Source: Azospirillum lipoferum 4B
GTDB lineage: Bacteria > Pseudomonadota > Alphaproteobacteria > Azospirillales > Azospirillaceae
Direction: 5' to 3'
Assembly (NCBI RefSeq): GCF_000283655.1
Contig: NC_016585.1
Span: forward strand, 377,001 to 441,000
DNA length: 64,000 bases
Part shown: piece by piece, positions 10,020-54,780 of the stretch
Layout of the letters: the number at the start of each line of letters is the position of its first letter
Position numbering within the stretch: position 1 is the stretch's first letter
Notes under the pieces: generated by a model
Told to the model about the DNA's origin: nothing
Seen by the model: only the letters and a program-made list of their open reading frames with translations
Databases searched by the model: none
Translations under genes and position numbers: made by a program

Positions 10020-11081
10020 ATGCCCAGCTTGCGTACCCTGTCGCTCACCGGTCTCGCCACGGTTGCCATCACGGCGGCCGCAGCCCTCTCCACCCCCGCC
10101 GCCGCCCAGACCAAGACGGTCTATATCGGCATGAACGGCGGCACGATGGAGAAGACCTACACCGAGCATGTCTTCCCCGCCTTCGAGAAGGCGACCGGCA
10201 TCAAGGTGGTCGTCGTCCCCGGCACCTCGTCGGACATCCTCGCCAAGCTGCAGGCGCAGAAGGACAATCCGCAGATGCACGTCGTCTTCCTGGACGACGG
10301 GCTGATGTACCGCGCCATCGGCATGGGCCTGTGCCAGAAGATGGAACCGTCGCCGGTGCTGGATCAGGTCTATCCGTCCTCGCGCATGAAGGGCGACATG
10401 GCGGTCGGCGTCAACATGGGCATGACCGGGCTGGCTTATAACAAGGCGATGTTCGAGGAGAAGGGCTGGGCGCCGCCGACCAGCTGGATGGATCTGGCCG
10501 ACGCCAAGTACAAGGGCAAGATCGTCGTCCAGTCGGCTGCCAGCAGCTCCTTCGGCCTGCATGCCTTCCTGATGTACAACCGCATCAAGGGCGGCAGCGA
10601 AACCAACGTCGATCCGGGCTTCACCACCTGGCGCAAGACCATCGGCCCGAACGTGCTGGAATACATCCCCAGCTCCGCCAAGATCGCGGAAATGGTGCAG
10701 ACCGGCGAGGCGGCCATCTTCCCGCTGACCCCGACCGGCGTCGGCACGCTGAAGGCAAAGGGCATCCCGGTGGAGTATGTCCAGCCCAAGGAAGGCTCGG
10801 TCGTCCTGATGGTCGGCGAATGCGTCGTCGCCAAGAACCCGGACAACGAGGCCGCGCAGAAGCTCGCCGCCTATCTGCTGAGCCCGGAGGCGCAGCTTGC
10901 CGCCCTGCAGTACGGCGCGCAGATTCCGTCCAACACCACGGTCAAGGCCCCGGCCGACGTCGCCGACGAGATGACCAAGTTCCAGGGCTACATGAAGACC
11001 GCCGTGACGGTGGACTGGGACGTCATCAACGAGAAGCGCCCGGACTGGAACCAGCGCTGGAACAAGGAAATCGAACGGTAA
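10020..11081 (+). CDS. ABC transporter substrate-binding protein (PotD/Fbp-like)
   Basis: Periplasmic receptor for the importer at 4141-6939. ATG 10020 has GGAGG six bases upstream; an upstream TTG in frame is rejected. A signal peptide (SLTGLATVAITAAAALSTPAAAQ) is followed by a cluster D-type binding fold: VYIGMNGGTMEKTYTEHVFP, FEKATGIKVVVVPGTSSDILAKL, GVNMGMTGLAYNKAMF, GWAPPTSWMDLADAKYKGKIV. It is the last gene of the operon and is followed by a palindromic repeat, which may stabilise the mRNA. Confidence 0.9.
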   Translation: MPSLRTLSLTGLATVAITAAAALSTPAAAQTKTVYIGMNGGTMEKTYTEHVFPAFEKATGIKVVVVPGTSSDILAKLQAQKDNPQMHVVFLDDGLMYRAIGMGLCQKMEPSPVLDQVYPSSRMKGDMAVGVNMGMTGLAYNKAMFEEKGWAPPTSWMDLADAKYKGKIVVQSAASSSFGLHAFLMYNRIKGGSETNVDPGFTTWRKTIGPNVLEYIPSSAKIAEMVQTGEAAIFPLTPTGVGTLKAKGIPVEYVQPKEGSVVLMVGECVVAKNPDNEAAQKLAAYLLSPEAQLAALQYGAQIPSNTTVKAPADVADEMTKFQGYMKTAVTVDWDVINEKRPDWNQRWNKEIER

Positions 11082-11113
11082 GGGGGGAGTTTATCTGGGG
11101 GGAGTTCTTGTAT

Positions 11114-11222
11114 CGTTGCCCCCACCCCAACCCTCCCCCGCTTCGCGGGAGAGGGGGTAAGCACGAGAGCGGCGGAGTTCCCTCTCCCGCAAAGCGGGGG
11201 AGGGGTGGGGAGGGGGCAAGCG
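11114..11222. repeat. Interspersed palindromic element
   Basis: GCCCCCACCCCAACCCTCCC pairs with GGGAGGGGTGGGGAGGGGGC across about 50 bp of spacer, with a small internal hairpin around CCCGCTTCGCGGG. It fills the gap between two convergent genes. It may act as a bidirectional transcription or decay barrier, but no T-run is present. Confidence 0.65.
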
Positions 11223-11232
11223 TTGCTTGTGC

Positions 11233-11715
11233 CTATTCCCTGCCATTCCCCAGCCACTTCTCCATCGCATAGTTGTGGATCGGCACGTCGCCGATCCGCA
11301 GCTCGCGGCGGGCCACCAGGGTGAAGCCGCGGCGCAGCAGGAAGGGGCGGGCGGCCTCGCTCGCCTCCACATGCAGGCGGGGATAGCCGAGCGCCGCGGC
11401 GCGGTCCTCCAGCAGGTCGACCAGTGCCGACATGGTGCCGCGCCCGGCCGCCTCCGGCGCGCAGTAGAGGAAGTTGATGTGGCCGTCCGGCTCCACATCG
11501 CTGAAGCCGACCGGCCGGTCGTCGTCATCCACCGCGACCAGGGCGACGCGGCCGTCGCCATAGGCCTCCCGCACCCGTTCCACCGTCGGCGCCAGCGCCG
11601 CCCAGGCCTCCACCTGCTCAGGCGTGTAGAAGCGCGGGCCTATGCCGCGGACGGAGCGGGCGTAGATCTGTGCCAGCACCGGGGCGTCTGACGGTCGGTA
11701 ATCGCGGATCCTCAT
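11233..11715 (-). CDS. GNAT family N-acetyltransferase
   Basis: 160-residue acyl-CoA-dependent acetyltransferase. It starts MRIRDYRPSDAPVLAQIYARSV, an N-terminal beta-alpha unit of the GNAT fold, followed by VALVAVDDDDRPVGFSDVEPDG. The acetyl-CoA loop is in CAPEAAGRGTMSALVDLLEDRA, and the end VEASEAARPFLLRRGFTLVARREL is the usual GNAT close. Start ATG 11715. It lies 35 bp downstream of the sugar dehydrogenase and may be co-transcribed. The acceptor is unknown. Confidence 0.85.
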   Translation of the reverse strand: MRIRDYRPSDAPVLAQIYARSVRGIGPRFYTPEQVEAWAALAPTVERVREAYGDGRVALVAVDDDDRPVGFSDVEPDGHINFLYCAPEAAGRGTMSALVDLLEDRAAALGYPRLHVEASEAARPFLLRRGFTLVARRELRIGDVPIHNYAMEKWLGNGRE

Positions 11716-11750
11716 CGGCCCCTGTCCTTGGCGCCCCGTCCATTTGGGGG

Positions 11751-12890
11751 CTATTTCGCCGGCGCCAGCCGCAGGACCGCGCCGTCGGAAGCGTCGGTGA
11801 TCACGTAGAGGGCGCCGTCCGGACCCTGTGCCACATCGCGGATGCGTGCGTCGAGCGGAATGCGCTCCGCCTCCTTCGCGCTGGTGCCGTCGATGGCGAC
11901 CCGAACCAGCCCCTTGGCGCTCAGGCCGCCGATCAGGGCGCTGCCCTGCCAGTTCGGGAACAGGCTTCCCTGGTAGAAGGCCATGCCGGATGGCGAGATC
12001 ACCGGCGTCCAATGAATCACAGCGTCGGTCAGGTCCTTGCGGGTCGGCGGGTCGGGGATGTCGCGGCCGTCGTAATGCTTGCCCCAGCTGACCAGCGGCC
12101 AGCCATAGTTCTTGCCGGCTTCCGGCCGGTTCAGTTCGTCGCCGCCCAACGGTCCCATCTCCGCGATCCACAGCGAGCCGGTGCGTGGGTCTATGGCCGC
12201 CGCCTCGATGTTGCGGTGGCCGTAGGACCAGATGGCGCCGGCCACCTTGCCTTCGCCGGCGAAGGGGTTGTCCTTGGGCAGCGAGCCGTCGCGGTTCAGG
12301 CGCACCACCTTCCCCAGCGTGTTGTCGCGGCTCTGCGCCGGATCGAATTTGTAGCGTTCGCCCAGCGTCAGGAAGATGTGGCCGTCGCCCGAGAAGACGA
12401 TGCGGGTGCCGTAATGGTTGCCGCCGTCCACCTTGGGCGACTGGCGGAAGATGACCTGGAAATTCTCGATCCCGCGGTCGGTCAGCGTGCCGCGCCCCAG
12501 CGCCGTCCCGGCGGTGCCGCCGTCGCCGGCCTCGGCATAGGCGAGATAGATCGTCCGGTTCTGGGCGAATTGCGGATCGACCGCCACATCCAACATTCCG
12601 CCCTGGCCCTGGACGAGAACCTTCGGCGTGCCGCCGAGCGGGGAGGAGAGGGAGCCGTCGCGCGCCATGATGCGCAGCCGTCCCGGCTTTTCCGTCACCA
12701 GAGCCCGGCCGTCCGGCAGGAAATCGATGCCCCATGGCCGCTCCAGCCCGTCGGCAAAGCGGCTGACCGCCACCGGGCCGGCGCTGGTCTGGACGGTCTT
12801 GATCACCGGCCCGCCGCCCGATTGGGCCAGGGAAGGCGAGGCGGCAAGGGCGGCAAGAAGGGCGGCCGACAGGGTCAGGGTGCTGCGCAT
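11751..12890 (-). CDS. PQQ-dependent aldose/sorbosone dehydrogenase-like protein (YliI family)
   Basis: Exported beta-propeller dehydrogenase expected to oxidise aldose sugars in the periplasm with PQQ. ATG 12890 has GAGGATC in front. A signal peptide (RSTLTLSAALLAALAASPSLAQ) is followed by the GSDH domain: LERPWGIDFLPDGRALVTEKPGR, GQGGMLDVAVDPQF, GGNHYGTRIVFSGDGHIFLTLGER, NTLGKVVRLNRDGSLP, SYGHRNIEAAAIDP, WPLVSWGKHYDG. The 379-aa length fits the family. PQQ use is inferred from the family. Longer upstream starts are rejected for lack of a ribosome site. Confidence 0.9.
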   Translation of the reverse strand: MRSTLTLSAALLAALAASPSLAQSGGGPVIKTVQTSAGPVAVSRFADGLERPWGIDFLPDGRALVTEKPGRLRIMARDGSLSSPLGGTPKVLVQGQGGMLDVAVDPQFAQNRTIYLAYAEAGDGGTAGTALGRGTLTDRGIENFQVIFRQSPKVDGGNHYGTRIVFSGDGHIFLTLGERYKFDPAQSRDNTLGKVVRLNRDGSLPKDNPFAGEGKVAGAIWSYGHRNIEAAAIDPRTGSLWIAEMGPLGGDELNRPEAGKNYGWPLVSWGKHYDGRDIPDPPTRKDLTDAVIHWTPVISPSGMAFYQGSLFPNWQGSALIGGLSAKGLVRVAIDGTSAKEAERIPLDARIRDVAQGPDGALYVITDASDGAVLRLAPAK

Positions 12891-13246
12891 CACGATCCTC
12901 CGGTTGGCAGGTTGGACTTCCAGATGGGGGTGCGTGCCGAACGGCCAAGGTTGGTTCGCCAAAAGAATCTCCGGCCGGCCGCACTGATGACGGCCACACA
13001 CTGTCATTCCTTTTTCGACGCTCGCGCCAGCCGGAACAGGTATTCGGCTGTCATGGGCTCCGTCCCGCTGATGGGATTCCCTTCGTCGTAAAGCGAGCCT
13101 GCGACCACTGGGGGAGGCGGCTTCCTGTCAGTCCAGCCGCAGGGGACCGGGCTGGGCGGTAAGATCATGCAGCAGCCCGCTGCCGGCGGAGGGGGCGAGA
13201 ACAATCCTGTGCTTCCCGGTGCCGGAGCCAGGGAAGCCGACCGGTC
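12891..13246. other. Intergenic stretch without a supported gene
   Basis: It separates the sugar dehydrogenase from the groEL terminator. A leftward 66-codon frame (13004-13204) is proline-rich at its start and has no recognisable domain or ribosome site. No other structure is evident. Confidence 0.5.
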
Positions 13247-13249
13247 ACA

Positions 13250-13286
13250 AGAAAAAAGAGGGGCCGCGCCGGTGTGGCGCGGCCCC
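13250..13286 (-). terminator. Rho-independent terminator of groESL
   Basis: Read leftward, GGGGCCGCGCC, a five-base loop and GGCGCGGCCCC form a perfect 11-bp stem, followed directly by CTCTTTTTTC. It lies about 60 bp past the groEL stop, in the right orientation. Confidence 0.88.
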
Positions 13287-13348
13287 GTCCAGGGAAAATC
13301 CAGTCCGAAACCGTTCGGCTGGGAGGCCTGTCGGGAAAGTTGCCCGGA

Positions 13349-15311
<1,963 letters not shown>

Positions 15312-39940: not shown

Positions 39941-40384
39941 TCAGTTCTTCAGCGGGCTGACCACGAAGCCGCGCCCGTATGGCCGCCGCGCCTCGCCCAG
40001 GAACTCCAGCACCGCTGCCGGCGCTGTGTAGGTTTGCAGGAACAGCCGCACCATCGCCGTGAGCGGCAGATCGGTGGCGTGGAACCGCTCATGCACCGCG
40101 CTGATCAGAACGTCGCGGTTCGCGTAGCCCTCCAGCTCGGCAATGTGATCGAGCAACAGCCAGGACGTCACGTCCAGTCGCATGGACGTCCGGTGCGAGG
40201 TCCGGCGGTTGGCGATCACCACGTTGTAGGTGACCAGCGGCGTCGCGCCGTCCTTGGGCAGTGCCGGCGCCATGTGGCGCAGCGTGCGCTCCATCTTCCC
40301 GGACAGATCGCCGAAGCTTCGGTCCATCGGCACGTTCTGCGGCCCGTCCCTGCGTTGCAGCGGGGCTTTGATCGCTCCCTTCAT
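39941..40384 (-). CDS. Ribbon-helix-helix-like phage regulator
   Basis: 147 aa from ATG 40384 with GGAGAGCG upstream. The central segment HRTSMRLDVTSWLLLDHIAE, LEGYANRDVLISAVHERF resembles the RHH_4 (PF13467) type of DNA-binding domain, followed by TDLPLTAMVRLFLQTYT. First gene of the leftward operon, directly downstream of the inverted operator at 40453-40491, so it may autoregulate. Domain call from pattern only. Confidence 0.6.
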   Translation of the reverse strand: MKGAIKAPLQRRDGPQNVPMDRSFGDLSGKMERTLRHMAPALPKDGATPLVTYNVVIANRRTSHRTSMRLDVTSWLLLDHIAELEGYANRDVLISAVHERFHATDLPLTAMVRLFLQTYTAPAAVLEFLGEARRPYGRGFVVSPLKN

Positions 40385-46276: not shown

Positions 46277-47503
46277 ATGGAAAGCTCTCTTGATAGGGAT
46301 GGAATGATTTATGCTGCAACCAATGATCTTATCGCTCGTTTGACGAGACATTATTATCAGCCGCTGTATAATTTTTTATCCCACAATCCTCATTTGATTA
46401 GTAAATTTACGGGTTTTTTGCTCAATCCTGAATACATTTCAGTATATTGGGGCAAGACACACGTTGCTGTTGAGTACAGTGGAAGCGAAGTTATTGACAG
46501 GCTTCCTGAAGAAGGGGTTGGGGATATAAAGATTTCTATCTTATTTAACACTGATAATATTTTGGAGGACATTATTGGTTTTAAATCAGACTCCAACTCT
46601 AATTTTGAAATCCCTCTTGCTGAGATGAATGAAGATATGATTTTTCCTACAAATAGAGGGTGGGAAAAAATGCATAATCTTGGCTGGAATGTTGAGGCGC
46701 AAAATAATTATACTTTTTTCAATATGAGATATCCTAAGCCTCAGATTGGAAAATTTTGTAGAATAGTCAATAGCCGTTTTTTTGATGCTGATGAAACGGG
46801 ATTGATTGTAAGGCATATCAAGTGGATGGATTTTTTTCCAATTTTTACTGAAAGGAGGGATGGAGCATTGTTGTTTGGATTTAACATTTCTAATGTTAGG
46901 CGTTTGGTTGAGAATGATGCAAAATACATTTACCCCATGCCTGACGATTTTAAGTACGTGCAATTGCCGAAAATTAACCGATTTATCGAGATTTGGGGAA
47001 ACAGAAGAAATAGAGAAACAGATATTACGTCATTTCTTTCGAAACCTGAAAACGAGTTCATTCTTACAATGAAATTTGGTGCGACGAGAATTGCATCAGA
47101 GCTTATATGCGAATGGCAAAGCGAGCGCAGAGAATCTATCAAGCCAGATTTTTTTGTAATACATCCTGATGGGTACGCTGATATTGTAGAGTTTAAATTG
47201 CCTGATATCGCTGGCGATGTTATTGTAGGAAGAAAAAATAGAGAAAGCTTTTCTGCTTGGCTAAACTCATATATTTCTCAAACAAGAAATTATGCAGAGT
47301 ATTTCGATGATCCAAATAACAGGAAGTGGTTTTTTGACAAGTATGGATTTAATGTTATTAAGCCTCGTCGCTGGGTTGTTGTTGGAAGGAGAGGGGATTT
47401 TGAGGGAGATATTTGGAGAAAGATTGTTTCTGACTATAGAGATATTAGTATAATGAATTTTGATGATTTGGTGGATGGGGTTTCGGCGCAATTTTATAAA
47501 TAG
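46277..47503 (+). CDS. Shedu-like anti-phage nuclease (SduA/DUF4263-type PD-(D/E)xK)
   Basis: 408 aa. The C-terminal third carries a PD-(D/E)xK core: E260, D291 in SIKPDFFVIHPDG, and E305-x-K307 in YADIVEFKLPD. A downstream helix SYISQTRNYAEYFDD has Q335, and RRWVVVGRRGDF follows. This order (KPDF, VE.K.P, Q..Y..YF, VVGR) is that of Shedu SduA nucleases. The N-terminal 250 residues match nothing I recognise and may be the sensor. Codon use and base composition are strikingly AT-rich next to 70% GC neighbours, so it is a recent transfer. ATG 46277 follows AAAGGTG. Confidence 0.8.
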   Translation: MESSLDRDGMIYAATNDLIARLTRHYYQPLYNFLSHNPHLISKFTGFLLNPEYISVYWGKTHVAVEYSGSEVIDRLPEEGVGDIKISILFNTDNILEDIIGFKSDSNSNFEIPLAEMNEDMIFPTNRGWEKMHNLGWNVEAQNNYTFFNMRYPKPQIGKFCRIVNSRFFDADETGLIVRHIKWMDFFPIFTERRDGALLFGFNISNVRRLVENDAKYIYPMPDDFKYVQLPKINRFIEIWGNRRNRETDITSFLSKPENEFILTMKFGATRIASELICEWQSERRESIKPDFFVIHPDGYADIVEFKLPDIAGDVIVGRKNRESFSAWLNSYISQTRNYAEYFDDPNNRKWFFDKYGFNVIKPRRWVVVGRRGDFEGDIWRKIVSDYRDISIMNFDDLVDGVSAQFYK

Positions 47504-47589
47504 ACTAATTGTAGAAAGCTCTATCATACCAATGTCATCTTATAACGCATTGTCTTGACGCCCCGCCCCCAACGGAGCGACCCTTCTCC

Positions 47590-47760
47590 CCGGAGCCTCA
47601 GAACCTCCACTTGGCGGCAGGCCGCCCGCGCGTTTTTCGCGATGCGGCCCTTTTCATGCCCGGACTCTGTCCGTAGCATGCCCCTTCGCCGGGGGTCGGA
47701 TAATACAACACCCGCAAGGGGAATAGTCCGGCCTGTCCAAGTCAGGTTCTGAACCCCCGG
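47590..47760 (+). ncRNA. C4-type antisense RNA leader, copy 1
   Basis: Arm TCAGAACCT (47598-47606) plus ACTTGG (47609-47614) pairs with antisense arm CCAAGT/AGGTTCTGA (47737-47752). Inside are helix GGCCGC/GCGGCC (47620-47625, 47644-47649) and the conserved core CCCCTT...AAGGGG, with CCGGACT/AGTCCGG. The same antisense arm can pair with TCAGAA (47775-47780) and GACTTGGA (47804-47811), which overlaps the Shine-Dalgarno of the gene starting at 47822. Homology to copy 2 begins at TTGACG 47555. Confidence 0.85.
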
Positions 47761-47821
47761 CACCAGGGCGGTCCTCAGAAGCCTTCCTGTCGCCGGCAAC
47801 GCCGACTTGGAGGGCTTCGCC

Positions 47822-50033: not shown

Positions 50034-50411
50034 TCAGTTTTCGCAGCCAAGCCAGCGGGACAGCTTTTTATTCAGGAAATCTGGATTGCGAGTCTCACAT
50101 TCCCAAATGGTCAGGACATCCCAGCCCAATGCGCGCAACTCTTGTTCTTTTCTGGTGTCTCTCTCGGTATTCTTTTTGAATTTATCTTCCCAGAAATCGG
50201 TTCTTGTCTTGGGGGTGGTTGAATATTTACATCCATCATGACGATGCCAGAAGCATCCGTGAACAAAGATCGCCTTCCGGAGACGAGGGAACACCATATC
50301 CGGAGTCCCAGGCAAATCCCGCCGGTGCAGACGATAGCGGTATCCAAGTGCATGCGCCAAGCGTCTGACGATCATCTCTGGTTTGGAGTCGCGCGGACCT
50401 ATGCGCGCCAT
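50034..50411 (-). CDS. vsr: Very short patch repair endonuclease (Vsr-like)
   Basis: Nicks 5' of T in T:G mismatches left by deaminated 5-methylcytosine. 125 aa. Catalytic D38 lies in LPGTPDMVFPRL, then AIFVHGCFWHRHDGCKYSTT with the metal/zinc histidines and cysteine, TPKTRTDFWEDKF and GWDVLTIWECE. The reading frame is open upstream of ATG 50411 and reads SPERSALM-ARI, the usual Vsr N-terminus, so translation may begin earlier at a non-standard codon. Fourth gene of the dcm operon, which explains its role. Confidence 0.88.
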   Translation of the reverse strand: MARIGPRDSKPEMIVRRLAHALGYRYRLHRRDLPGTPDMVFPRLRKAIFVHGCFWHRHDGCKYSTTPKTRTDFWEDKFKKNTERDTRKEQELRALGWDVLTIWECETRNPDFLNKKLSRWLGCEN

Positions 50412-50451
50412 GAGAGCAGATCGTTCAGGCGAGGGCGCAGCATCCTGCTTG

Positions 50452-51207
50452 TTAGGCGTTGGCTTGGTTGGCTGGTCTTCGTTCCGGGCGGAGATATTGA
50501 TGCTCCTTTATATATTTTATGAAGGCTTGAACGACCTCACGAAGGTAAGCCGCAACATTGTTTGAAAGTGCGCGTAGATCTTGCACGCCATCGTCTTGGC
50601 CGCATTCAGCAAAGGAAAGGTTTCCGTGAGCCAATTTGTTCCTTAGATGAACGATTAGGGCCATAGCTCCCAGATCATTCCTTATTTTACGTTTCACACC
50701 GCTTTTTGCCGTTGCGCTGATGTCGAGTCTGCATCCGATGCGATCGGCTATTCTAAATATGGCGGCATCGTCCCAATTTCCACCTCCACCCTTATCGATG
50801 TCGAAAGGGTCGACAGGCAACGCAGCAACCAAGTGATCACAGAGGACGAGCGCTTCTTCCAGGCGTTTATCCGCTCCCATATCGATATTGGTTCGGGCCA
50901 CATGCTTTACCCATTCCCGGCGCAGCTCGTTGGTGAGATCGCCGGGAGTCCAACGAGCTGCCTCCATTGCAGCTTTGCTTACGGCGTCCAGGCAACTTGT
51001 TATGCTCGCCTCTACAAGATTGTAGAGTTGTAGGTAGACGCCGGAATACAGGATTCTCTGCTGCTGGGTGGTCACTACAAAATTGTTTCCATCTCCAATG
51101 CGAGGTACGCCGGAGCGCACTACGGCTTCGATACCATCCAGAAAATCAAGATAGGCTGAAATCTCTCCAAATCTCTCCTCAAATTTATTTGAGAGTTCAT
51201 CAATCAT
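50452..51207 (-). CDS. HEPN-domain protein (MAE_28990/MAE_18760-like putative RNase)
   Basis: 251 aa, alpha-helical. The HEPN catalytic motif Rx4H is R189-N-K-L-A-H194 in LIVHLRNKLAHGNLSF. The N-terminal half includes RILYSGVYLQLYNLVEASIT. The family is seen in defence islands, often adjacent to DUF262 proteins. ATG 51207 overlaps the DUF262 stop by four bases, so the two are probably co-expressed partners. RNase activity is inferred from the motif. Confidence 0.75.
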   Translation of the reverse strand: MIDELSNKFEERFGEISAYLDFLDGIEAVVRSGVPRIGDGNNFVVTTQQQRILYSGVYLQLYNLVEASITSCLDAVSKAAMEAARWTPGDLTNELRREWVKHVARTNIDMGADKRLEEALVLCDHLVAALPVDPFDIDKGGGGNWDDAAIFRIADRIGCRLDISATAKSGVKRKIRNDLGAMALIVHLRNKLAHGNLSFAECGQDDGVQDLRALSNNVAAYLREVVQAFIKYIKEHQYLRPERRPANQANA

Positions 51208-52286
51208 AATGCACCTGTCAGAGCTTCCTTGACAAAATCCATTCTATTCTGAAGCTTGGATTTAACATTTGCTGCGTCTGATGTGGTTTTCTTTTTAAAA
51301 TCGTCTCCGTCAATCCATGGGGATACGTCTATTGCTTGCCAATTCTGGGCTAGTTGCGGGTTAATTTTCAGTGCAAGATAACTCCCAATGGCTATGGCCT
51401 CGAACCTCACACGCGGAGTGGTCGTCGCTCCAGCTGTTTTCTTGAAGCCATTTGGGAAGACACGCTCCACAAACTCCAATGTCTCGTAGAAACGCCGCCT
51501 ATAGATCGCCGAAAGCTCTGCCTCTTCAATGAACTTTTCGTTCATCCTCTTGGTGTAGTCGAATATAAACCTTGATGGGCTGTCCTTATAATTTTCCAGC
51601 CCATCCCCATAAGCAAAGAACCGAGCGACCAACTCTTCATTGATTCTCTCGTTTTTTGACTTCTTTGAGATTGGCGCAAGCCTACCTAGAATTTCGCTGT
51701 CGGCAAGCTCAGTGACCATATCTTGGAACAGGCCACGCAAAGCACCCCGGCGAACTTCCGCCGTGTTCGTGACCTTGCTCCCGGTGTTGATGCGCTCGAA
51801 CATATCGAAACGAGCTTGATCATCGGCATGCTCGTTCAGGACTATGCCTCTGATCGATCGATTTAAAATCTTGTTCTGACGAGATGGAAGGAGGTCAGAA
51901 AAATATGTGTGAGATATAGACGGAATTTCTTCAAGTTCGGTGAGCTTCAAATCATTGTTAACGTAATGCTGGATAGTCCTGAGGCGCTGAGAACCATCAA
52001 CAATTTCAAGCTGCCCACTTTCCATCTCCCAAAAAAAGATGAACGGTATGGGAAGCCCCATGATGATGGACTCTATGAAGCGGGATTGTCTTTCTGATTC
52101 CCAGGTGAATTCACGTTGATACTCAGGGATCACGAAACGCCCCTGGTTCATCTTGTCCGCAAGATACTCAACAGAGTACTCGGTCATGTAAAAATCAATG
52201 CGTCGAGAGCGCTCGATGATCTCGGTCTCTGCCGCCTCGGCTCTTTCCTGTGAGAAGAGGTTCCTTGTCCGGGGCGATCTCGCCAT
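51204..52286 (-). CDS. DUF262 domain protein (GmrSD-N/ParB-Srx-like NTPase)
   Basis: 360 aa. Hallmarks: VEYLADKMNQGRFVIPEYQR, EFTWESERQSRFIESIIMGL, PIPFIFFWEME and DGSQR at 97-101 (LEIVDGSQRLRTIQ), followed by FDMFERINTGSKV. DUF262 is the nucleotide-hydrolysing half of GmrSD type IV restriction enzymes and of several defence modules. No DUF1524 HNH domain is present; the HEPN partner may replace it. Third from the promoter side of a dcm-DUF262-HEPN-vsr operon it precedes HEPN directly. Confidence 0.82.
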   Translation of the reverse strand: MARSPRTRNLFSQERAEAAETEIIERSRRIDFYMTEYSVEYLADKMNQGRFVIPEYQREFTWESERQSRFIESIIMGLPIPFIFFWEMESGQLEIVDGSQRLRTIQHYVNNDLKLTELEEIPSISHTYFSDLLPSRQNKILNRSIRGIVLNEHADDQARFDMFERINTGSKVTNTAEVRRGALRGLFQDMVTELADSEILGRLAPISKKSKNERINEELVARFFAYGDGLENYKDSPSRFIFDYTKRMNEKFIEEAELSAIYRRRFYETLEFVERVFPNGFKKTAGATTTPRVRFEAIAIGSYLALKINPQLAQNWQAIDVSPWIDGDDFKKKTTSDAANVKSKLQNRMDFVKEALTGAL

Positions 52287-52348
52287 TTACTTTCTCCCAT
52301 TGACGGCCCCAAGCTACATAGCTCATCGACCGTCAGACGGGAAGAACT

Positions 52349-53464
52349 TTAGAACAAGGACAACTGCCCTTGAGGTGGGGGTAGGCCATCACGCACTTGA
52401 CTGAGATGGGTACGAATCGAATGCCCGATCGCCTCTCCCAGCTTCGGCGGAACTGCGTTGCCGATCAGCGTTCCCAAACGATTGAAGGTGACCTCGTCGT
52501 CAGCGTCGAGGAACTGGTAATCGGGAGGGAAGGATTGCAGAAGAGCAGCCTCCCTCAAACTGATGGCCCTATCCTGTTCGGGGTGCCCGAAACGACCGTT
52601 TCCGAAGCCATAGCACTGGGTCGTCATGGTCGGCGCGGGTTTGTTCCATTCCATCCGACCATAGACCGCTGGATACGTCTTGCCAGTCTTTCGCACATGG
52701 CATTTCGCCCGAAGGCTCTTGGGCCAATCGCGCCAAGTTCCGCCGGGCTTCGACGCGCGAATGCGGCGAAGGTTGATCGGGCTCAGGGACGAAGCGGTAT
52801 GGAGGCGATCATCAGGGTGTGTTCCTCCGGCGGTTATCGCAGGAAGTTCACCGATCACCTGCTTTACCGTGCGAAGGTCCTTCGTATCCGGCCCGGCCAG
52901 TTCGATCTTACCCAGTTGAGAGGCCAGGAGGACCAAGCGGCGGCGGTTCTGAGGCACACCGAATTCCGTACACAGCACCTCTCGCCAAGTGACTTTGTAG
53001 CCCTCTGCCTCCAGAGCCGCGACGAATTCCTTCCATATGCTCTGGTTGGCGAGACCAGGAACATTCTCCATCGTCACGATTTCGGGACGGATTGCGACCG
53101 CGAGCCGCTGGAATTCCCGCAGAAGGGTCCATCGGTTGTCTTCGGATTTACGGCTTTGCGAATAGGTCGAGAAGGGTTGGCACGGGGCACAGCCTGCCAG
53201 TACCCGAATCGAAGCCTCGCCGAACCACCCGATCACATCGTCGGCTGTCACGGCCGAGACGTCCCTGCATACGAACGTTGCCCCGGTATTGGTTTCCAGG
53301 GGGAAGCGGCATGAAGGATCGAGATCCACGCCTGCCGCGACATGCAGTCCGGCTTGTTTCAGGCCATAGGCGAGGCCACCAGCGCCACAGAACAGGTCAA
53401 CGACTGCGATCGAGTCGCTGCTGGTTCCTTCCGTCGATGTCGTCGTCTGGTCCATTTTTCTCAT
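52349..53464 (-). CDS. dcm: DNA (cytosine-5) methyltransferase, Dcm-like
   Basis: 371 aa from ATG 53464 (ATG 53455 also possible). C5-methylase motifs in order: I DLFCGAGGLAYGL, IV GCAPCQPFS with catalytic C95, VI TMENVPG, VIII QNRRRLVLLAS, and X IGNAVPPKLGEAI. The variable target-recognition region lies between VIII and X (LHTASSLSPINLRRIRASKP onward). First gene of the leftward operon; pairing with vsr confirms a 5-methylcytosine function. The recognition site cannot be read off. Confidence 0.93.
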   Translation of the reverse strand: MRKMDQTTTSTEGTSSDSIAVVDLFCGAGGLAYGLKQAGLHVAAGVDLDPSCRFPLETNTGATFVCRDVSAVTADDVIGWFGEASIRVLAGCAPCQPFSTYSQSRKSEDNRWTLLREFQRLAVAIRPEIVTMENVPGLANQSIWKEFVAALEAEGYKVTWREVLCTEFGVPQNRRRLVLLASQLGKIELAGPDTKDLRTVKQVIGELPAITAGGTHPDDRLHTASSLSPINLRRIRASKPGGTWRDWPKSLRAKCHVRKTGKTYPAVYGRMEWNKPAPTMTTQCYGFGNGRFGHPEQDRAISLREAALLQSFPPDYQFLDADDEVTFNRLGTLIGNAVPPKLGEAIGHSIRTHLSQVRDGLPPPQGQLSLF

Positions 53465-53744
53465 ACAGTCCGAAACACGGCGGCCGTCGTGAACACCAGA
53501 TCGGCAGCGTCCCGTGCCGCCTTCCATCCATATCTAGAGCCTTCGGTGGAAAGGGGCAACGACCCATCGAGTATGCGGTGCGAGGAAAAATCAGAGTAGG
53601 GTCCAGGAAATATCGTTTTGGATGTCGAAGAGGTCGGTTCATCGCTCCTCCTCGGCCTTGGGTTGTGCTGAGCGGCGGTCTATGGACAGAGGGAAGGTGA
53701 ATGCCATCCTTGACGCTGCGCCCCCAACGGAGCGATCTTTCGGG
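53465..53744. other. Divergent region between dcm and the second C4 leader
   Basis: Holds the presumed dcm promoter and the start of the second leader homology (TTGACG 53710, then GCCCCCAACGGAGCGA shared with copy 1). No gene supported. Confidence 0.4.
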
Positions 53745-53912
53745 CCGGAGCTTGATAACTCCCCACAGGCGGCAAGCCACCCGCGCGTTTTTCGCGATGT
53801 GGCTATTTTTATGCCTGGACTCTGTCCGGAGCATGCCCCTTTGCCGGGGGTCGGATAATACAACACCCGCAAGGGGAATAGTCCGGCCTGACCTGTGCAG
53901 GTTATCAGCCCC
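53745..53912 (+). ncRNA. C4-type antisense RNA leader, copy 2
   Basis: Same architecture as 47590-47760. Arm TGATAAC (53753-53759) plus CACAGG (53764-53769) pairs with CCTGTG/GTTATCA (53892-53907); helix AGCCAC/GTGGCT (53775-53780, 53799-53804). The core ATAATACAACACCC and AAGGGGAATAGTCCGGCCTG is identical to copy 1. Alternative targets are TGATAA (53930-53935) and GCACAGG (53958-53964), the latter overlapping AGGAGGG. Every variable helix differs from copy 1 by compensatory changes. Confidence 0.85.
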
Positions 53913-53976
53913 CGGCGCCAGGGCTGCCTTGATAAGCGGTCCTCCGTCGGTCATGCCGCACAGGAGGGCATTCGCC

Positions 53977-54780
53977 GTGGAAACCATGAGCGACAACGGG
54001 CAAGCTTTGCCCGCGTTATCAACGACCGATATCGACATCACGATCAATCACGAGCCGCGCATCCGTGACCTTCGGCTTGCCGAAGCGCTGGGCATGGCGG
54101 ACCGCCACGCCATCCGCCGGCTGATCGAGCGGCACATGGACGCGCTCGGTAGGTTCGGAGAGGTAATTTCCGACGCTGATCGGAAATTCGGGCGGGGCCG
54201 TCCGTCCATGAGCTTCTATCTCACCAAACGGCAAGCGCTCTACATCACGGCGAAGTCGGACACCGAGCGCGCCGCGCTGGTGACGATCCAGATGGTCGAG
54301 CTGTTCGACGCCGTGACCGGCGGGGCCGTGCATTCCGCCCTGGCTCCGGCCCTCACCCGCGCCGACCTCGACGCCATCGACCGCCGCGCCCGACGGATCG
54401 GGCAGGAGGAGCAACAACGGGTGCGCTCCGCCCTGACCGACCGGGCGCTCGACCGTCTGCGCCGGGGCGAGCGGATCGACATCGCCTCGCTGTCTGCCGA
54501 CCGGCCGCATGAGCCCGCCGCTCTGCCCCCGCCGCCCGCCCGGACGCGCGAGGAGAGCATGGACCTCGCGCTTGCCCATCTGCGCGCCCTGCCGCCCGAG
54601 CTGCGGCAGGAGGGCTTCCGCCTGATGCACGCCATCAAGGCCCACAGCGACGCCCTGACGGCACTGAAGGCCGCGACCGAGGCGATCAACTCCCCCCTCG
54701 ACACCGTCGCCGAAATCCTGGAGCGTGAGACGACCCTCATCCGCCAGACCATCGCCGCCCAGGCGGGCAGGGTGGGGTAG
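53977..54780 (+). CDS. Antirepressor-like phage DNA-binding protein, copy 2
   Basis: 267 aa. GTG 53977 aligns with ATG 47822 of the paralogue; ATG 53986 is next. A longer frame back to 53701 is rejected because it runs through the leader RNA. The N-terminal domain (NHEPRIRDLRLAEALGMADR, RPSMSFYLTKRQALYITAKS) has diverged from copy 1. From LTRADLDAIDRRARRIGQEE to the end the two proteins and their DNA are about 95% alike, suggesting recent duplication or gene conversion. Antirepressor role is inferred from the C4 leader. Confidence 0.72.
   Translation: METMSDNGQALPALSTTDIDITINHEPRIRDLRLAEALGMADRHAIRRLIERHMDALGRFGEVISDADRKFGRGRPSMSFYLTKRQALYITAKSDTERAALVTIQMVELFDAVTGGAVHSALAPALTRADLDAIDRRARRIGQEEQQRVRSALTDRALDRLRRGERIDIASLSADRPHEPAALPPPPARTREESMDLALAHLRALPPELRQEGFRLMHAIKAHSDALTALKAATEAINSPLDTVAEILERETTLIRQTIAAQAGRVG

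Follow-up and report, generated by a model that had tools for sequence, protein, structure and literature searches.

Two modules of the same build lie on the forward strand of the DNA analysed here, a stretch of 64,000 nucleotides from Azospirillum lipoferum 4B that is hereafter called the window. They are spaced 6155 bases apart and are 84% identical to each other. In both, a TTGACG motif stands first, then the leader segments a1 and b1 and a terminator-like hairpin; behind these come an RNA of about 82 nt, which contains the segments b' and a', the segments a2 and b2 and finally a gene (Table 1). The promoter of the modules is putative and was read from the letters; a consensus scan for sigma-70 promoters gave no match at either module, and a strict-rule terminator scan reported neither module's hairpin.

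Table 1. Parts of the two modules, with positions counted from the first letter of the window
Feature	Position	Strand	Remarks
Module 1 putative promoter, -35-like TTGACG	47555..47560	+	read in sequence; 43 nt upstream of a1
Module 1 leader	47590..47614	+	a1 TCAGAACCT 47598-47606; b1 ACTTGG 47609-47614
Module 1 terminator-like hairpin GGCCGC...GCGGCC, then CTTTT	47620..47654	+	read in sequence
Module 1 putative antisense RNA (RF02221)	47688..47769	+	cmscan; b' 47737-47742, a' 47744-47752
Module 1 core string 1	47700-47713		exact-match search, window
Module 1 core string 2	47716-47729		exact-match search, window
Module 1 a2 TCAGAA	47775..47780	+	complement of a'
Module 1 b2 GACTTGGA	47804..47811	+	overlaps Shine-Dalgarno-like GGAGG 47809-47813
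Putative target gene 1, Rha/antirepressor-like, 272 aa	47822..48640	+	weak profile matches
Module 2 putative promoter, -35-like TTGACG	53710..53715	+	read in sequence; 43 nt upstream of a1
Module 2 leader	53745..53769	+	a1 TGATAAC 53753-53759, in GGAG/CTCC hairpin; b1 CACAGG 53764-53769
Module 2 terminator-like hairpin AGCCAC...GTGGCT, then ATTTTTA	53775..53810	+	read in sequence
Module 2 putative antisense RNA (RF02221)	53843..53924	+	cmscan; b' 53892-53897, a' 53901-53907
Module 2 core string 1	53855-53868		exact-match search, window
Module 2 core string 2	53871-53884		exact-match search, window
Module 2 a2 TGATAA	53930..53935	+	complement of a'
Module 2 b2 GCACAGG	53958..53964	+	overlaps Shine-Dalgarno-like AGGAGG 53962-53967
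Putative target gene 2, paralogous to target gene 1	53977..54780	+	start GTG 53977 or ATG 53986

An earlier reading made from the sequence alone (the sequence-only reading) had placed both copies in one prophage, and a single virus record of 42,546 bases (G002), with 100% identity to the window between position 39941 and the window end, indeed contains both. An integrase and a large terminase, recognised downstream by PHROG matches, are consistent with a prophage. Related DNA in a second record (G001) has the same two-module arrangement, in which the address of module 2, that is, its variable segments, is the same and the address of module 1 is different. The DNA directly before each module resembles exchangeable cargo (window 46277-47503 and 50034-53527; L257:4400-8100 and 10400-14300). 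In the window, a Shedu SduA gene (PADLOC, 568 bits) stands before module 1, and genes for Vsr, a HEPN protein, a GmrSD/NsnA-like protein and a cytosine methyltransferase stand before module 2; in the G001 prophage, the respective places are taken by a caspase-domain protein with an HTH/M78 protein and by a 1091-aa TPR protein.

The proteins encoded at the end of the two modules are 79% identical over 264 aa and were typed by weak profile matches. PF09669 (Phage_pRha) was reached at E 4e-5 by the first and E 6.8e-6 by the second, in both cases under the Pfam cut-off, and PHROG 63 (anti-repressor Ant) at E 4.4e-5 and 1.5e-5, respectively. A PHROG Rha-like regulator was also matched weakly, and NCBIfam gave no match for either gene.

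Both RNAs match the full model of Rfam family RF02221 (sRNA-Xcc1; model positions 1-87), with 63.3 bits for copy 1 and 61.9 bits for copy 2 at a cut-off of 53; the founding sRNA-Xcc1, reported from Xanthomonas with ends mapped by RACE, measures 88 nt, near the 87 positions of the model (PMC2996969). The C4 family (RF01695) had no match above cut-off in the window and none at E <=10 in 53500-54100, where copy 2 lies; likewise, c4-a1b1 (RF03163) and isrK (RF01394) had none above cut-off in the window and none at E <=10 around copy 2. No RF02221 was reported in the C4 region of phage P1, and RF02221 is assigned to no clan, in contrast to C4 and c4-a1b1, which both belong to clan CL00128. The sequence-only reading had called these elements C4 leaders. 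What holds of this is the C4-type architecture with matched addresses; membership of the C4 family is not supported, since RF02221 was matched and RF01695 was not, which places the window RNAs outside the C4 family by profile.

Between the two copies, the variable segments change jointly at three sites, namely at a1 and b1 in the leader, at a' and b' in the RNA, and at a2 and b2 ahead of the gene. The paired changes described in the sequence-only reading were all recovered: a1/a' is TCAGAACCT/AGGTTCTGA in copy 1 and TGATAAC/GTTATCA in copy 2, b1/b' is ACTTGG/CCAAGT and CACAGG/CCTGTG, the terminator-like stem is GGCCGC/GCGGCC and AGCCAC/GTGGCT, and the segment at the ribosome site changes in step from GACTTGGA to GCACAGG. 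A downstream partner of a', the segment a2 (TCAGAA in copy 1, TGATAA in copy 2), was absent from that reading and is added here. The core that had been described as fixed is so within the window, where each core string occurs exactly twice and no third copy is found at <=2 mismatches. When the leader and the downstream part were dinucleotide-shuffled, none of 5000 shuffles of either copy attained all four complementary runs at their observed length, and single runs were attained in 0.1% to 10.7% of shuffles. The exact complement between b2 and the b' loop region, 8 letters in module 1 and 7 letters in module 2, is reached by 0.2% and 1.6% of shuffles, respectively.

Scans with the core gave at least 249 elements (collection loci and the window), and with 97 of the 249 dropped as duplicates or for incomplete flanks, 152 distinct elements with full flanks were obtained among the matches listed, the two of the window included. 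The test word was drawn from the P3 loop with two letters on each side, and the downstream zone was set at 98 nt; a best-complement search in wide ranges had separated own from mismatched partners weakly, which was resolved by using the P3 loop and proper flanks. In 77 of the 152 elements among the matches listed, the loop finds a complement of at least six letters on either side, in the leader as well as in the downstream 98 nt (mismatched partners, 3.0%), and in 72 of those 77 an ORF starts at the downstream match. A single 6-letter word from the P3 loop fits leader and downstream zone alike in 70 of the 152 listed elements (mismatched, 1.9%), or in 64 of 123 when the listed matches are counted by distinct loops; these mismatched rates are probably overestimates and not underestimates, as related elements share flanks. 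Among the matches listed, 89 elements have an ORF starting at the downstream match, and in 63 of them b2 and the start codon are separated by 7-11 nt. The second segment follows the same pattern in the 72 full cases among the matches listed, a' finding its complement in the leader in 83% (22% mismatched) and downstream in 76% (17% mismatched). Among the matches listed, a1 was found in 120 elements, and in 88 of these it is preceded by TTGAC at a distance of 25-65 nt (mostly 41-46). Start-site targeting is nevertheless not universal in RF02221, because 49 of the 152 elements among the matches listed have the leader match alone, 17 the downstream match alone and 9 neither, and a further 5 have the two-sided match with no ORF in place.

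The related prophage of G001 offers a close comparison. Its homologous module 1 (L241) is 89% identical over 919 bases and carries CAATGG, CCATTG and CAATGG as b1, b' and b2 where the window has ACTTGG, CCAAGT and ACTTGG; its a' is TTTCGA, with TCGAAA in both a1 and a2, where the window has TTCTGA with TCAGAA. In another close relative (L244) the leader is unrecognisable. Six loci (L001, L004, L013, L014, L071 and L088) have a nearly fixed loop of the CATGCGG type; their addresses lack the variation shown by the others, and their downstream ORF begins with MNPLCTVLPDLP or similar.

By minimum-energy folding, RNA 2 forms a closing stem P1, a P2 domain containing the core and a hairpin P3, and RNA 1 forms P1 and P3 with the outer P2 stem missing; in both, b' falls within the P3 loop and a' within the 3' junction. 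The a1 hairpin is present in the minimum-energy fold of leader 2 and not in that of leader 1. Covariation was assessed in an alignment of 67 elements, taken from the 123 with distinct loops among the matches listed. Because RNAalifold on the MAFFT alignment missed stem P1, the pairs were counted on an Rfam-like structure derived from a single row. In this three-helix fold, 89.4% of cells are standard pairs (71.9% shuffled), 202 cells are changed on both sides (65.7 shuffled) and 14 of 19 pairs show a two-sided change somewhere (11.1 shuffled), slid controls being lower as well, in the 67-element alignment, where kinship among the rows can by itself beat shuffles and the fold controls are accordingly not strict. 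Its covariation score is 0.437 in these 67 elements as compared with at most 0.135 for slid partners, a comparison biased in favour of the fold by mapping the structure from one row. Invariance of the core carries no weight in the alignment because the elements were selected by it. The proposal, made earlier from the two copies, that these stretches function as RNA is supported by the analysis.

The genes that follow the RNAs in relatives are of a recurring type. Pfam was scanned with 77 of the 89 references, 12 having been dropped by eye as short or cut ORFs or as being of the Xanthomonas kind, a choice that favours the antirepressor share. Among the matches listed, the 77 downstream proteins scored as pRha (16), KilA-N (11), P22_AR_C (11), AntA (9), Bro-N (9), ORF6N (9), P22_AR_N (7) and ORF6C (3), where one protein may score in several families and the two of the window are included, gene 2 from 54001. 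Every Pfam family with more than one of these 77 listed proteins is a phage regulator or antirepressor domain, the others being single. With several antirepressor-type families among the targets, the shared factor is the regulatory role of the gene and not its sequence family. For E. coli, 25 rows were listed out of 32 records, some of the strains being near-identical; 22 of the 25 have an antirepressor, KilA-N, Bro-N or P22AR gene under the match and 3 have no feature there. One locus (L061) matches phage Rac-SA53, whose ant gene starts 36 nt behind the match; the phage collection contains no near match to module 1 and none to L042.

Taken together, we consider it highly probable (about 0.85) that each of the two leaders works as a C4-type antisense switch around an RF02221 RNA which blocks translation of the antirepressor-like gene behind it. 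A single transcript from the TTGACG promoter would comprise a1-b1, the terminator-like hairpin, the RNA, a2-b2 and the antirepressor-like gene, and the RNA should be cut free from the leader transcript, as is done by RNase P in phage P1. The letters NCC occur within about 2 nt past stem P1 in 141 of the 149 elements with P1 found among the matches listed, which is compatible with RNase P cleavage and no proof of it. Once released, the RNA would bind b2, at the Shine-Dalgarno site, through b' of its P3 loop and a2 through a' of its 3' junction, and both contacts should block translation, so that the regulator would be left untranslated in the lysogen. As a'b' can also pair with a1b1, the short terminated leader may act as a sponge, or this pairing may feed back on transcription.

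The analogy is based on experiments with the C4 RNA of P1/P7, which are summarised in PMC5320573. Phage P1 is annotated in the order a1, b1, C4, a2, b2, icd, ant1, and its C4 RNA is built like the window RNAs: stem P1 closes it, P2 and P3 are hairpins, b' occupies the P3 loop and a' lies between P3 and P1. As in the window, b2 lies just before a gene, there in an antirepressor operon and here before a gene so typed by weak profiles. The two differ in P2, which is a short UUCG hairpin in phage P1 and a larger conserved AATACAA..ACCCGnAAGGGGAATA domain in the window, and in the leader, where 114 of 120 RF02221 elements among the matches listed could hold a1 in a small hairpin loop. Another kindred system is IsrK of Gifsy-1 (RF01394), reported as a short leader RNA running to a terminator, with read-through into an antirepressor gene and complementarity between the leader and the downstream RNA (PMC4825925). 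IsrK is reported in the same paper to activate anrP translation in trans, whereas the direction of the leader effect in the window is inferred. The a1b1 leader of phage P1 scores 35.1 bits with the isrK model (cut-off 50). At L020:2422-3753, two isrK-C4 pairs (RF01394 and RF01695) and an RF02221 RNA occur within 1.4 kb, so that both switch types stand side by side.

Among other explanations, the one that survives best, although we regard it as unlikely, is that the elements are mainly cis attenuators or self-regulators, in which a'b' on a1b1 sets read-through and the start-site match is secondary. It is favoured by the 49 leader-only elements among the matches listed, in which b1 and b' fit over at least seven letters in 94% as compared with 7% for mismatched partners, and by a T run of at least four between leader and RNA in 140 of the 152 distinct elements among the matches listed. 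Yet the loop word also fits downstream in the window and in 70 of the 152 listed elements, a match which attenuation alone would not maintain, and the downstream genes are of antirepressor type.

Most of the leader-only elements belong to a branch found, by record titles, in Xanthomonas, Rhodanobacter, Luteimonas, Lysobacter and others. Among the matches listed, the 49 consist of 37 of the Xanthomonas kind and 12 others, and cover 36 distinct loops. The XAC0095 scan used 37 of the 49, the 12 not of the Xanthomonas kind being left out, and 36 of these 37 listed downstream proteins match the XAC0095 family, the remaining one being SymE. The proteins with the 62-position XAC0095 domain at L126, L143, L149, L158 and L196 vary in length (255 aa at L126). 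Seven genomes (G011-G016 and G018) hold 4 to 7 copies each, and 16 loci other than L121 also have a SymE-like ORF farther downstream. Of the Xanthomonas integron cassettes, one that places sRNA-Xcc1 ahead of symE has been described as the most widespread, and divergent regulation was suggested for it (PMC12444791). When a start-site or coding-region target was sought to about 1 kb in the 49 leader-only elements, own and mismatched partners reached 7 letters at similar rates (24% and 22%), and at L121, directly before symE, no b2 is visible by eye. Since the branch shows no start-site target, the pair of leader and RNA probably serves a separate purpose there, or has a target elsewhere.

For the two copies in the window, the C4-type switch would entail that two 79%-identical regulators are silenced separately, as is expected from b' differing at 5 of 7 positions and a' at 3 of 7 between the copies, and each RNA is predicted from its sequence to silence its own gene only. 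Complementary runs are 6-9 letters long with the own partner and 3-5 letters long with the crossed one. Isolated a'b'-mRNA duplexes were computed at -29.0 and -27.1 kcal/mol for own and -18.2 and -19.9 kcal/mol for crossed combinations, the own mRNA being favoured by about 7 to 11 kcal/mol and the own leader by about 3 to 14. Co-folding of the full-length RNAs gave no clean separation: with the mRNA start region, RNA 1 reached -4.9 own and -8.3 crossed and RNA 2 -8.3 and -5.6, and with the leader RNA 1 reached -8.2 and -2.2 and RNA 2 -5.3 and -5.8. These full-length results, and the likeness of the paralogous genes (79%) and modules (84%), could be taken to mean that the two copies arose by duplication, that their RNAs continue to cross-regulate and that the differences are drift. 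We think this improbable, for the differences fall at matched positions across all three segments, the crossed complement runs are short as given above, and in P1/P7 cross-reactivity is said to be restricted by a deviation of as little as 4 nt (PMC5320573, citing Citron and Schuster). In the Xanthomonas-kin elements, an address is shared by 0 of 43 same-genome pairs and by 12 of 453 pairs from other genomes (15 loci without an exact core were skipped and 3 of 33 matches had no locus); as only about 1 of the 43 was expected, the result does not count as evidence that insulation is selected for.

A last alternative, that RF02221 is a trans-acting sRNA of virulence or host genes which prophage genes adjoin by chance, takes its support from papers describing it as integron-borne, HrpG/HrpX-controlled or endowed with many computed targets (PMC2996969, PMC12189769, PMC12444791), and we hold it to be very improbable, given that the covarying complement adjoins the RNA on the same strand ahead of genes from several unrelated antirepressor-type families and that at least 120 of the stretches lie in viral contigs.

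The literature searched on sRNA-Xcc1 differs from what is observed in the window, in that it treats an integron or virulence RNA with computed targets, and the Xanthomonas-kin copies stand before XAC0095 genes with no start-site match. Five clustered sRNA-Xcc1 copies in a Xylella genomic island (PMC12189769) and 15 copies in the genome of A. salmonicida J223 (PMC8780938) were interpreted as virulence RNAs. C4 and sRNA-Xcc1 are both annotated in Xylella, and the available portions of PMC12189769, the only paper in the literature searched to name both, draw no functional link between them. The Rfam 15 paper gives RF02221 two additional covarying pairs and mentions a further family, c4-2 (PMC11701678). 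In the literature searched, sRNA-Xcc1 was not found together with the term 'antirepressor', and a link could be present in Chen et al. 2011, the 2017 motif survey or the Rfam text. A two-copy C4-type switch on RF02221, a use not described in the literature searched, is well supported by the present analysis.

A module of this kind was also encountered beside a transposase. In E. coli GMM060 (NZ_CM183920.1; L314:11900-14500), an RF02221 module of 70.4 bits and a P22AR_C gene lie beside an ISL3-family transposase, and the segments of leader, RNA and start site match as read by eye. The module lies within GGGGTATTCGGGA-type inverted repeats, and the 2.6 kb unit recurs with 100% identity at 196623-199223; 13 places in this genome match the unit, of which two were seen as full copies. 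A transposon whose antisense switch is common to its copies could show multicopy inhibition.

A broader reading that joins these branches is put forward tentatively, as we rate it somewhat below even odds: RF02221 could be a portable, self-addressed switch, in which the RNA and its leader share a short address that also stands at the target start site where one is present. Prophages would apply it to several unrelated antirepressor families, the ISL3-type transposon of E. coli would hold the whole module, and the Xanthomonas-kin branch would have dropped the start-site target and kept the covarying leader-RNA pair before XAC0095 genes. If this is true, the Xanthomonas-kin branch would represent an antisense-controlled attenuator or a sponge pair with no mRNA target in cis.

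Overall, the main interest lies in the reassignment of RF02221 and in the branch without a start-site target. The C4-type switch gives a testable role to an Rfam family that has been annotated as a virulence RNA with computed targets, and it fits the copies in prophage regions. The elements provide a natural series of antisense addresses which may be orthogonal. They also isolate a question that reaches beyond phage P1, namely the purpose of the address copy a1b1 in the leader, since one branch retains just that part.
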